Assembly (NCBI RefSeq): GCF_900172375.1
Contig: NZ_FWFS01000007.1
Span: forward strand, 1 to 64,000
Direction of reading: 5' to 3'
DNA: 64,000 nucleotides
Origin: Aquimixticola soesokkakensis
Lineage (GTDB): Bacteria > Pseudomonadota > Alphaproteobacteria > Rhodobacterales > Rhodobacteraceae
Position 1 is the stretch's first letter. Every line of letters begins with the position of its first letter. Positions 1 to 3,838 of the stretch are shown here, piece by piece. The position numbers and the translations under genes are program-made. The notes beneath the pieces were generated by a model. That model worked only from the letters and a program-made list of their open reading frames with translations, was not told the origin of the DNA and did not search any database.

Positions 1-330
1 GCGGCGATCATCAAGTCGGGCTGCGGCCTTATTACGGCTGGCCGCCACGACCATCGGCCGGAGCGACACGGCCGGAGCGACACGGCCGATGGTGCCTTCT
101 ACCGTCGCCTTTCGGCACGGATTGGAAAGCAGAAGGCGGTGACGCCAACCGCCCGCAAGATCGCCGTCCTGTTCTATAACGCCATCAGACATCGCATGAC
201 ATATCAGGATCAGGGCGCTGCGGCCTATGACGAGAGGCATCGCCAAAGGGTTCTGGCTAACCGTAAGCGGCGCGCAAAGACCTTGGGTTACGCCTTGGCG
301 CCCATGCCCAACCCAGAGGCTGTTTCTTAG
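1..330 (+). pseudogene. IS110-family transposase, C-terminal remnant
   Basis: The frame is open from the window edge to a TAG stop. From about position 94 it reads a typical IS110 C-terminus: AFYRRLSARIGKQKAV, then ARKIAVLFYNAIRHRMTY and a basic tail ending RRAKTLGY. IS110 transposases are about 330-400 residues, so at most the last quarter is inside the window. The sequence upstream of position 91 (rich in His, Arg and Asp) does not resemble the family and contains a 14-bp tandem duplication. This suggests that the remnant is rearranged, not merely cut by the window edge. The family call rests on recalled motifs. Confidence 0.55.
61..88. repeat. 14-bp tandem duplication
   Basis: The unit GAGCGACACGGCCG occurs twice in a row, preceded by a partial copy (CGGCCG). 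It lies just upstream of the recognisable part of the IS110 remnant and looks like a local slippage or duplication event in decaying DNA. Confidence 0.7.
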
Positions 331-350
331 GAAGCAACGCAGTTCTTCAC

Positions 351-716
351 GTGCCAAAAGCCGTGAGGTTCAGGTTTGTGGAAGAACACCGAGGTCAGTT
401 TCCGACAGAGCGCTTGTGTCATGTCATGGAGGTTAGCGCGCGCGGATTGCGGGCTTTCCGTAGTCGCCCGGCCAGCCGTAGACAACGCAGTGATCTGGTG
501 ACGCTGGCACACATCAAGGAACAGTCTCGTCTCAGCCTGGGCAGCTATGGCAGGCTGCGGATGACCGAAGAGCTGAAGGAGATCGGCTTGGACGTGGGGC
601 ATCGCCGTGTTGGCAGATCAATGCGTCAGAACGGCATATCTGTTGTGAGAACACGCAAACATAAGGTGACGACAGACAGTGATCACACGTTCAACATTGC
701 CCCGAACCTTGTTGAT
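351..716 (+). pseudogene. IS3-family transposase orfB, N-terminal fragment
   Basis: The frame resembles the N-terminal helical region of IS3-family OrfB: HRGQFPTERLCHVMEVS, then SYGRLRMTEELKEIGLDVGH, RRVGRSMRQNGI and DSDHTFNIAPNLVD. The last motif normally leads directly into the integrase core (DDE domain). Here the frame runs into the left end of the IS21-family element and stops at TGA 723-725. The integrase core does not resume on the other side of the IS21 element, so part of the IS3 element was lost or a later rearrangement occurred. Non-functional. Confidence 0.75.
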
Positions 717-739
717 TGTCACTGAGAACTGACCCGGTA
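711..739 (+). repeat. IS21 left terminal inverted repeat
   Basis: The 29 bases match the reverse complement of 3304-3332 exactly. The core begins TGTCACTGAGAACTGACCC. A related internal copy, TGTCACTGAGAATTGACCC, starts at 751. Confidence 0.9.
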
Positions 740-1243
740 GCCCCATAAATTGTCACTGAGAATTGACCCATGTGAACACACTTCCCCGACGGTTTTGGTT
801 GGGGTGATTTGGAGTGATCGACATGGGATTTTTGAGTGTCATTCGACGCTGGGCATTGCGTGACAAAATGCCGATACGCGAGATTGCCCGGCGGACGGGT
901 TTGTCTCGGAATACTATCAAGAAGTATCTGCGCGAAGGTGCGGTGGAACCGCAGTTCAAGACGCCCAAGCGTCCAAGCAAGATGGATCCCTACGCGGATC
1001 GGCTGTCAGCCTGGCTTTTGATCCAGACGCGGAAGTCACGCAAAGAGCGGCGGACAGTGAAGCAAATGCATGCTGATCTGGTGAAGCTGGGATATGATAG
1101 CTCTTATGAACGCGTGGCAGCTTTCGCCCGGGCATGGCGTGAAGATCGGCATCGAGCGGAACAGACGACGGGGCGCGGCACCTACGTGCCTTTGGTGTTC
1201 GCGCCCGGCGAAGCCTTCCAATTCGATTGGAGCGAGGACTGGG

Positions 1244-1277
1244 GTCACGCCAAAGGCGTGCTTTCAGCACGACATCG
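1244..1277. repeat. 34-nt hairpin repeat, copy 1, inside istA
   Basis: This segment matches 1668-1701 at 32 of 34 positions. It contains a CACGCC-AAA-GGCGTG stem-loop immediately overlapping a second one, GTGCT-TTC-AGCAC. It interrupts istA between the W of the SEDW motif and the I of the following IGGERVKLQV segment, shifting frame by +1. Confidence 0.85.
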
Positions 1278-1667
1278 GCGGTGAGCGCGTCAAACTTCAG
1301 GTCGCTCATATCAAACTGTCACACAGCCGCGCTTTCTTGGTGCGGGCCTACCCGCTGCAAACGCATGAGATGCTGTTTGACGCCCACTGGCATGCATTCC
1401 GTGTGTTCGGCGGCGTGCCTGGTCGCGGGATCTATGACAATATGAAGACCGCCGTTGATCGTGTGGGCAAAGGTAAGCAGCGAGACGTCAATGCACGCTT
1501 CAAGGCTATGGCCAGCCACTACGTGTTTGAGCCGGAGTTCTGCAATCCGGCGGCCGGTTGGGAGAAAGGCCAGGTTGAGAAGAATGTGCAGGATGCGCGC
1601 AACCGCATGTGGCAGGTCATGCCGGTCTGCGCCGATCTGGCAGAGCTGAACCAATGGCTTGAAGATC

Positions 1668-1701
1668 GTCACGCCACAGGCGTGCTTCCAGCACGACATC
1701 G
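1668..1701. repeat. 34-nt hairpin repeat, copy 2, inside istA
   Basis: Second copy of the 1244-1277 unit with two substitutions (loop A to C, and T to C). Both overlapping stems are preserved: CACGCC-ACA-GGCGTG and GTGCT-TCC-AGCAC. It interrupts istA between the R of WLEDR and IALWTE, again shifting frame by +1, and again is followed directly by ATCG. Confidence 0.85.
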
Positions 1702-2000
1702 CCCTTTGGACAGAGACACCGCACAAGGCTCTACCGGGGTCCATCGCTGACGTGTGGGAGGCCGAGAAGCCTACGCTGATGGCACTGCCCCCGGCATTCG
1801 ATGGCTTCATCGAACACAGTAAGCGTGTGTCACCCACATGCCTGATCACGTTCGAACGCAATCGCTACAGCGTTCCCGCCAGCTTTGCGAACCGCCGTGT
1901 CAGTTTGCATGTCTATCCCGAACGGCTGATCGTGGTCGCTGAAGGGCAAACGGTGTGCGAGCATGCGCGGATCATCGAGCGGTCTCATCCACTGCCCCGG

Positions 2001-2042
2001 CAGTGCATGTTTACATGCATGAGAGGGGGCAAGCCCGGCAAG
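2001..2042. repeat. 42-nt double-hairpin insertion inside istA
   Basis: This in-frame extra segment lies between LPR and VIYDWRHY of istA. It contains a perfect 7-bp stem TGCATGT-TT-ACATGCA (2004-2019) followed by GGGC-AA-GCCC (2027-2036). The sequence is unrelated to the 34-nt repeats, but the two-hairpin architecture is the same. Confidence 0.6.
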
Positions 2043-2078
2043 GTCATCTATGACTGGCGCCACTATCTCGCGCTCGTC

Positions 2079-2115
2079 CATTGTCCTCGGACCAATGGCG
2101 GACAAGGCCTCGCTC
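2079..2115. repeat. 37-nt double-hairpin insertion inside istA
   Basis: This extra segment lies between YLALV and QRKPGALRNGAPF of istA and shifts frame by +1. It contains CCATTGTCC-TC-GGACCAATGG (2078-2098, one bulged C). An alternative pairing joins TTGTCC (2081-2086) to GGACAA (2100-2105). Confidence 0.6.
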
Positions 2116-2469
2116 CAACGCAAACCGGGCGCACTTCGGAATGGTGCGCCGTTCACGCAGATGCCCGATGCCTTCCGTCAATTGCAGGATCACATGGCTC
2201 GCGTAAAGAAGGCGGTGACCGAGAGATGGTCGACATTCTGTCTTTGGTTCTTCAGCACAACGAAGAGGACGTTTTGTGTGCAGTGGAACTGGCACTTGAA
2301 GCAGGCGTCCCCACCAAGACGCATATCCTGAACCTGTTACATCGATTGATCGACCGCAGACCGACAGATCACCCCAAGGTCGATCCGCCGGACGCACTGG
2401 CATTGCAGACAACGCCAGTTGCCAACGTCGGTCGCTATGACGGGTTGCGCCAGACTGAGGAGAAGCGCC

Positions 2470-3261
2470 ATGCGTCATGACCCGGCAGGAGCCTCTATCG
2501 TCATCATGCTGCGCAGCCTCAAGCTCTATGGCATGGCAAATGCGGTCGACGATCTGGTCGCCCAGGGCGCGCCAGCATTCGAGGCTGCCACGCCAATGCT
2601 GTCACAATTGCTCAAAGCCGAGATCGCCGAACGTGAGGTACGGTCCATCGCCTACCACACGAAGGTTGCCCGCTTCCCCGCATACAAAGATCTGACGGGC
2701 TTCGACTTTGCATCGAGTGAGATCAACGAAGCAACAGTGCGGCAGCTACACCGATGCGAGTTTATCGAAGCGGCCGAGAATGTCGTTTTGATCGGCGGTC
2801 CCGGAACGGGCAAGAGCCACACAGCCACAGCAATCGGCGTCCAAGCCATCGAACATCACCGGCGTAAGGTGCGCTTCTTCTCGACCGTGGAATTGGTCAA
2901 CGCGCTGGAGCAGGAGAAGGCGCTTGGTAAGGCAGGCAAACTCGCTGAGATGCTGACGAAGGTCGACTTGGTCATCTTGGACGAACTCGGCTACCTGCCG
3001 TTCAGTTCATCTGGCGGGGCGCTGCTCTTCCATCTGCTCAGCAAACTCTACGAGCGCACCAGCGTCATCATCACCACAAACCTCAGATTCTCAGAATGGG
3101 CGCAGGTCTTCGGGGATGCAAAAATGACAACCGCGCTCCTCGATAGGCTGACCCACCGCTGCCACATCCTCGAAACCGGAAACGATAGCTACCGCTTCAA
3201 AGCCAGCGCTGAGGCTGCAAAGAAAACACGAAAGGAGGCCAAAACATTGACCACGTCATAA
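2470..3261 (+). CDS. istB: IS21 helper ATPase IstB
   Basis: IstB is the AAA+ ATPase that selects target DNA and stimulates IstA. The Walker A motif GGPGTGKS, Walker [13 protein letters not shown], sensor segment [13 protein letters not shown] and the [11 protein letters not shown] motif are all present. Its 263 residues are the usual IstB length. The start is ATG 2470, overlapping the 3' end of istA (stop 2478-2480) as usual for translationally coupled IS21 genes. The frame is intact, unlike istA, so IstB could be made but would lack its transposase partner unless another istA copy exists. Confidence 0.93.
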
Positions 3262-3303
3262 ACCACGACGCATAACTGAGGGTGGGTCAAATCTCGGTGA
3301 AAA

Positions 3304-3332
3304 TACCGGGTCAGTTCTCAGTGACAATCAAC
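3304..3332 (-). repeat. IS21 right terminal inverted repeat
   Basis: Exact reverse complement of 711-739. An internal degenerate copy lies at 3283-3300, between the istB stop and this repeat. Confidence 0.9.
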
Positions 3333-3838
3333 ATCAATTCCTTGACCGCTGGACCGAGCTTTATAATACGGCTCAGGATCTTCCTGAATGGACGCCATTT
3401 GAATATGCATCGCCTGACCCGATGGATCGTTCTGCTGCGCGCCGTATTCTCGAGGAAATGCAGCCTAGTGGGAAGTTCGGAAAGGCAAGAAAGATAGGCC
3501 TATTCGGCGGTCGTTACCGTTTGGAAGTCAGAGGGCACTCATTCTTCGTAAGCTTGCGTGTAAACGCAACCTACGATGAAGATCGGCCCGGTAGCCCTTA
3601 TAGACTGGCCTTCGAAAAAGGAAACCACGCGCGCTCCAGCAACTGCTTATCGCCGGATATTTCGGAAGAAATTCGCATTCGCCGCGGCGAAAGCAAAAGA
3701 ATCGACGAGCGGAGCGATCCTCATCTGAAAGATATATTGGCGACGTGGGATGGCGAGACCGCTACCTTGCGCGAACTTATTGACCGATATGTTTTCGAAA
3801 TATGTCAACTTGATGCGGCAAACTGGCCAAACCAGTAG
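3329..3838 (+). pseudogene. Broken gene of unknown function, 3' part
   Basis: An open frame runs out of the right end of the IS21 element without a start codon. It reads FLDRWTELYNTAQDLPEW, then MDRSAARRILEEMQPSGKFG, ending QLDAANWPNQ at TAG. The first in-frame ATG is at 3422. Continuous, protein-like sequence before that ATG suggests that the 5' end was removed by the insertion. Base use is visibly more AT-rich than the core genes, as expected for acquired DNA. I recognise no domain. The alternative is an intact small gene starting at 3422 (138 aa). Confidence 0.5.

Follow-up and report, generated by a model that had tools for sequence, protein, structure and literature searches.

The window, by which we mean the entire stretch of 64,000 nucleotides from Aquimixticola soesokkakensis analyzed here, hosts an IS21-family element in which both istA and istB have IS21 homology. 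End-to-end alignment with seven relatives places this element on the forward strand at 750..3320, and its left terminal repeats extend a few tens of bases beyond that span. The relatives reside on plasmids of Sulfitobacter, Roseovarius, Phaeobacter (two), Tritonibacter (two), and Rhodobacteraceae bacterium SC52. Each has istA and istB annotated except the copy of Tritonibacter mobilis F1926 (L008), which is without annotation. In the window, istB (2470..3261, forward strand) is open and insert-free, as judged from the open reading frames (ORFs) and the alignment. The istA gene (814..2480, forward strand) is interrupted: its zero-frame ORF in the ORF list stops at 1284, right after the first of several inserts, and tblastn finds istA fragments spread over three frames. 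The window copy comprises 2571 bases, and its excess over the 2443-base relatives corresponds to four inserts plus a lesion of two nucleotides, all in istA. Upstream, at window positions 1-725, lie ORFs that read by eye as IS3-like, and the IS21 element seemingly sits inside or beside another transposase gene.

Four inserts and a fifth lesion in istA

The inserts are described here with type labels (A, B, C, D, and F) that were coined in this analysis; type D is close to type A, and types D and F occur in relatives. Insert 1 (type A; 1244..1273, forward strand) reads GT-CACGCC(AAA)GGCGTGCT(TTC)AGCACG-AC and adds a net 25 nucleotides at 1244-1268. Insert 2 (1668..1697, forward strand) is a second type A copy, with loops ACA and TCC and a net gain of 25 near 1669-1695. 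Insert 3 (type C; 1990..2028, forward strand) consists of the hairpins CACTGCC/GGCAGTG and GCATGT/ACATGC with a GAGAGGGG tail, for a net gain of 39. Insert 4 (type B; 2072..2113, forward strand) reads GCTCGTC-CATTGTCCTCGGACCAATGGCGGACAA-GGCCTCGC and adds a net 37 around 2076-2113. The gains of 25, 25, and 37 shift the istA frame and the gain of 39 keeps it. Together the four inserts total 126 nucleotides, a multiple of 3, and the +2 lesion still shifts the frame. This fifth lesion, at 2197..2202 on the forward strand in the alignment, is hairpin-free and is common to the window and the Sagittula marina copy (L138). A type B element that was later lost may have left it behind, given that the ends of this type read GCTCG..CTCGC.

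An earlier note on this DNA had proposed that four discrete segments, each with two closely spaced or overlapping palindromes, split an otherwise normal istA. Alignment with the seven relatives indeed gives discrete insertions with conserved flanks, and two close or overlapping palindromes are found in every insert. The coordinates in that note were correct to within a few bases except for the third segment (2001-2042), which had been placed 11-14 bases too far to the right. The note did not have the identity of inserts 1 and 2 as one element or the hairpin-free fifth lesion. Because of that +2 lesion near 2197, removal of the four segments does not restore a normal istA as had been supposed.

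Six of the seven relatives carry none of the four inserts, and the seventh, from T. mobilis F1926, carries insert 4 along with two inserts of its own. For this gene, close relatives did not have the segments as in-frame coding sequence, nor did the alignment dissolve into scattered indels only. In the alignment, window inserts 1, 2, and 4 and one F1926 insert each take the place of about five bases of the target, and no target duplication, which would be expected of a MITE, was seen by eye at those three window inserts. A 25-base double-hairpin pattern, allowing up to 3 mismatches, matches the window three times versus 0.05 expected; two of these matches are exact and lie in istA, and the third is a weak reverse match that overlaps the first. 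The insert-4 core matches the window once versus 0.00 expected. RNA fold z-scores for the four segments are modest (-1.9, -1.6, -2.6, and -0.35), and fold energy was therefore set aside as proof of structure in favor of recurrence elsewhere as the basis for recognizing these segments as elements. Rfam covariance models gave no match up to an E value of 1 in window positions 700-3400.

Element types and the IS21 copies that carry them

A single 26-base core, CACGCCnnnGGCGTGCTnnnAGCACG, underlies inserts 1 and 2, which differ in their loops. Exact matches to this type A core are present in 117 stretches from a public genome collection (genome_contigs), with 129 matches that reduce to 124 places after tandem merging and to 86 groups after grouping of similar flanks. 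By record title, with orders assigned by eye, these stretches derive mostly from Rhodobacterales, along with Hyphomicrobiales and a few others. In the genome of A. soesokkakensis itself, both type A matches fall in this istA. The type B core, as in insert 4, was found with up to 2 mismatches in 42 of 295 genomes of the family, and a reversed-pattern control yielded 0 among the matches listed. The genome of A. soesokkakensis has five type B places: insert 4 itself, a site next to an ORF with rve domains (L013), and three that are in IS3 sequence as judged by eye. Type C relatives of insert 3 are present on plasmids of Leisingera, Phaeobacter, Sulfitobacter, Roseobacter, and Octadecabacter. The search of the genome and its relatives thus found the same elements in other transposases and genomes. 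This recurrence, together with their absence from six of the seven aligned relatives, bears out the suspicion that the segments are not scattered decay and identifies them as discrete insertions of dispersed double-hairpin elements.

Type A elements are GC-rich, with stems of 5-6 bp and loops of 3, and from their sequence can be read as two overlapping inverted mini-palindromes. Among 124 unique flanks, the core is preceded by CGT (71), GGT (12), or TGT (10) and is followed by ACG in 90 cases. The arrangement CGTC-ACGCC..GGCGT plus an inverted partner is thus frequent in type A. The tag before types B and C varies. There is also a slight excess of target-flank complementarity, at offsets 2-6 for type A and at shifted offsets for type B. 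Tandem type A arrays with a 27-base unit are found at L114:3458-3537 and in L148 (reverse strand), with 3 and 4 units, respectively. Type A is often located in or next to other palindromic repeats, including a GCCCGACCGCCC..GGGCGGGCGC set (L053, L056, L061, L070, L075, and others) and, in records titled Rhizobiales, Hyphomicrobium, and the like, CCTCTCCCC..GGGGAGAGGG repeats (L055, L060, L062, L083, and others). In the genome of A. soesokkakensis, a type C-like stretch (G000:C20:512-550, locus L221) and a type B stretch (C20:1148-1174, locus L014) lie about 600 bases apart. A second IS of this genome, IS3-like by eye at these two loci, may carry several inserts.

Numerous other IS21 copies are laden with inserts. 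There are 13 in each of two Pseudooceanicola spongiae copies (L064 and L140), nine in L091, eight in L111, at least seven plus a fused insert 1/2 in S. marina L138, four in L134, three in L008, and two in L204. The three inserts of L008 are all in istA, and one of these has the window insert-4 core at the same position. The bases GCGCTCG precede the core in both copies, and because GCGCTCG recurs with the core at other sites, it must be part of the element. The insert-4 core is also at the same site in L138, which shares with the window insert 4, the +2 lesion, and inserts 1 and 2 in fused form, and which has at least six further inserts. Near position 3947 of L138, the istA stretch between inserts 1 and 2 is deleted, apparently by recombination between them, and one extra type C-like stretch of this copy did not separate as a discrete insert in the alignment.

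The two laden copies of P. spongiae are 99.86% identical over 2898 bases, lie far apart on the chromosome, and carry the same 13 inserts, which represent types A, B, C, and D in both orientations. The presence of two near-identical laden copies in one genome indicates that a laden IS21 moved or was duplicated after it acquired its inserts. A third IS21 copy in this genome has open istA and istB genes, and it is possible that this copy serves as a helper that supplies transposase in trans.

Type A and D inserts in IS21 have net lengths of 24 to 28, and once 51, with +27 at several sites. In a Paracoccus liaowanqingii plasmid (L018:2001-2045), a type B core lies in frame within an annotated 522-amino-acid IS21 transposase of another subfamily. 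From this case, some inserts are predicted to be carried as extra peptide. The in-frame examples, which include the +39 insert of the window, the +27 IS21 sites, and L018, imply that not every insert need kill its gene.

Landing sites and the condition of laden copies

The context of the elements was assessed by blastx of their flanks against 36 reference transposase proteins, one of which (PL_IS630) has 6 stops and is probably misframed. For type B, 14 of the 23 grouped sites, the one in the window among them, have transposase-matching flanks (Fisher 1e-15). For type A, the figure is 11 of 86 after grouping (Fisher 2e-5) and 27 of 124 before it, and for control positions taken from the same loci it is 5 of 345. 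The other 75 grouped type A sites match none of the 36 transposases, and thus most type A elements lie outside recognized transposases; by eye, several type A groups are in intergenic palindromic repeats. An assignment of context by longest ORF and Pfam domain was abandoned owing to frequent wrong-strand ORFs and to most members having no match (best 25 of 71 and best 25 of 118 families).

Insert positions, which were entered by hand from the alignments with L138 shifted by +27, recur between IS21 copies. Copies L064 and L091, whose backbone dS is about 1.1 and of which L064 is nearer to the intact copy L203, share 7 positions versus 0.26 expected, and L091 has all four L134 positions versus 0.08 expected. 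An all-against-all comparison of nine copies (36 pairs) finds at least one common position in 23 pairs and none in 13, with 7 pairs passing Bonferroni correction (p 0.05/36). The seven passing pairs all fall within the set L064, L091, L134, L111, and L069, some of which share a 6-nucleotide deletion and perhaps share inserts by descent; for the passing pair L064/L111, descent is probably the cause. In an earlier set of 11 hand-picked pairs, 5 were not significant at 0.05. The window copy has one position in common with each of L008, L064, L091, L111, and L138, none of them significant after correction. At shared sites, the subtype and orientation of the inserts are mostly alike.

The extent of constraint on the laden copies was gauged from N/S values, which are parsimony counts made with hand-picked outgroups and no tree model, and with codons near gaps or poor matches omitted. 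Among copies that have inserts in common and diverged afterward, raised values were obtained for L111 (35N/18S; Fisher 8e-8), L138 (44N/29S; 2e-7), and L064 (12N/10S; 0.011) versus 56N/162S for a pool of less damaged reference copies (L003, L203, and L205), of which L205 is damaged itself by a +1, a -1, and one in-frame stop in istB. Further branch counts are 94N/106S for L091, 10N/11S for L134, and 21N/17S for L069. Ambiguous sites numbering 33 for L064/L111, 108 for L064/L134, and 146 for L203/L064 were omitted. Single-base indels and large deletions are present in L138, L111, and L091, and one in-frame stop is present in L138; the compared codons of L064, L091, and L111 have none.

The window copy departs from this trend. 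Despite sharing inserts 1, 2, and 4 and the +2 lesion with L138, its unique changes since the split from that copy number 8N/29S (553 codons kept; 13 ambiguous and 3 three-state sites omitted), a ratio that does not differ from that of the less damaged copies (Fisher 0.69). Similarly, L204, with two inserts, gives 29N/76S. The low values of the window and L204 could be explained by recombination, recent insertion, or independent hits. Besides the inserts, the window and L138 are joined by only 7 shared derived sites, 4 of which adjoin inserts. Given this small number and conflicting site groupings at about 1600-1860, either recombination or independent insertion at hot spots may have been at work.

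Several explanations for the inserts deserve consideration. The earlier note regarded palindrome-mediated template switching in a dead gene, with hairpins made locally, as a serious alternative. A broken frame and related copies with many indels are what such ordinary decay would produce. However, a 26-base core at 129 places, many of them unrelated, cannot arise locally, and the same type B core lies beside different transposase families in different genomes. Recurrence thus refutes ordinary decay as the general cause, and we give this explanation almost no credence, although it could have shaped single copies. That note had also raised translational bypass, by which ribosomes would skip the double-hairpin inserts, istA would still be expressed, and the elements would spread as nearly neutral passengers. 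Several short inserts per gene, akin to the 81 corrected insert blocks of Magnusiomyces mitochondria in the available portion of PMC5009743, are compatible with this proposal, as are the 126-nucleotide total of the window inserts, the low N/S values of the window and L204, the stop-free compared codons of L064, L091, and L111, and the movement of L064 and L140 with all of their inserts. Against bypass stand the frame-shifting +2 lesion, the variable out-of-frame insert lengths, the raised N/S values of L111, L138, and L064, the indels and deletions of L138, L111, and L091, and the in-frame stop of L138. Moreover, the elements also occur outside genes by eye, and the open IS21 of P. spongiae can provide transposase in trans. 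Bypass therefore seems quite improbable.

It is also conceivable that inserts spread in a homing-like manner, with short-tract gene conversion carrying them from a laden IS copy to the homologous position of an intact one instead of de novo movement on each occasion. The agreement of subtype, orientation, and position in diverged IS21 copies fits transfer as well as it fits targeting, and the paucity of derived sites other than inserts that join the window and L138 points the same way. However, for six inserts common to L064 and L091, the identity of the two copies within 30 nucleotides of the insert is 0.70-0.87 versus 0.78 overall, such that no long gene-conversion tracts are seen. Furthermore, the elements are also in unrelated IS families and intergenic repeats, which requires movement to new sites. 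We infer that the hot spots arise from a preference for certain targets rather than from recombinational transfer, and we regard recombination as a possible but rather unlikely general route. More doubtful still is a homing-like class of approximately 30-bp hairpins that targets conserved transposase sites across IS families with its own subtype for each site. Such a class might carry out a guided, transposon-hunting inactivation, or its inserts might be tolerated because they are removed or skipped in expression. The latter option is considered because the window copy stayed constrained though it shares inserts with a diverged copy.

Drawing on the directly observed insertions, recurrence, transposase enrichment, shared positions, frame disruption, and duplicate laden copy, we favor, with a probability of roughly 0.7, the reading that the segments are REP/RPE-like miniature mobile palindromes that prefer transposase genes, usually break them, and land at hot spots. 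As so understood, the elements are about 27-44 bp in length, form at least three subfamilies with two overlapping or adjacent hairpins each, and belong mainly to Rhodobacterales. They would circulate and settle in intergenic palindromes and, disproportionately, in transposase genes of several IS families, where they hit identical positions repeatedly and replace a few bases of the target. Perhaps they move as DNA by a hairpin-based mechanism or hairpin-recognizing machinery. A Y1 transposase of the RAYT kind is not supported as the general mobilizer: no Y1_Tnp domain was found in the genome of A. soesokkakensis, and across 295 genomes Y1_Tnp is not associated with type B (2 of 42 positive and 28 of 253 negative genomes; Fisher 0.28). 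In the window, the inserts and the 2-nucleotide lesion together destroy the istA frame, and the IS21 element is most likely dead or dying with istB still open. It seems reasonable to infer that laden copies make no full-length IstA. Laden IS21 elements would then persist as decaying passengers that are, most likely, mobile in trans via an intact relative.

Relation to known palindromic elements and coding gaps

Mobile palindromes of less than 50 bp rank with the most poorly understood mobile DNAs, and for their closest published counterpart, the CGTC repeats, no mobilizer is known. Repeated hits at the same transposase positions, with 13 in one 2.5-kb IS21, constitute a dense natural record of landing and of effects on the target. 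These elements make it testable how palindromes without a transposase move and whether such palindromes brake insertion sequences. A literature search that covered few subscription papers and no preprints turned up neither these elements nor comparable inserts in transposases.

The small dispersed repeats of cyanobacteria are likewise very small and mobile and also occur inside genes. In addition, the byps of Magnusiomyces capitatus resemble the present inserts in size and hairpins. Like the inserts, the byps and the T4 gene 60 gap are short, and several can interrupt one gene, with 81 instances in M. capitatus according to the portion of the source available (PMC5009743). The present case differs from those systems in its additional frame lesion, the raised N/S of several laden copies, and occurrence outside genes, and the indirect evidence is mostly against bypass. 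REPIN/RAYT (TnpA-REP) systems are similar in that hairpin pairs behave as miniature non-autonomous elements, as far as the accessible text of the sources indicates (PMC8266576, PMC3116915), but the results for Y1_Tnp given above set the present elements apart.

The closest counterparts are the CGTC REPs of alphaproteobacteria, which the available part of PMC3733652 describes as palindromes of 20-40 bp, often in inverted pairs, that are mostly intergenic and in some cases intragenic, with no dedicated transposase found. That text defines them by a terminal unpaired CGTC (or TGTC/CCTC) tag, a stem of 8-9 bp, a loop of 4-5, and complementary AT at the stem base, and it notes only few and fortuitous associations with transposase genes. 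It also equates the Rickettsia palindromic elements RPE-4 and RPE-6 with CGTC REPs. RPEs resemble the present elements as palindromic inserts within protein genes, but they add encoded amino acids, whereas all of the window inserts except insert 3 are frame-shifting. In comparison with the CGTC REPs as so defined, type A often has the CGTC-ACGCC..GGCGT arrangement with an inverted partner, and the elements are likewise small palindromes that are in some cases intragenic. However, the GC-rich type A stems are 5-6 bp rather than 8-9 bp, with a loop of 3; the tag is not constant, and types B and C do not fit; and transposase genes are over-represented. The stem length, the inconstant tag, and this over-representation thus point to a variant of REP/RPE-like palindromes with hot spots that goes beyond the published CGTC kind.
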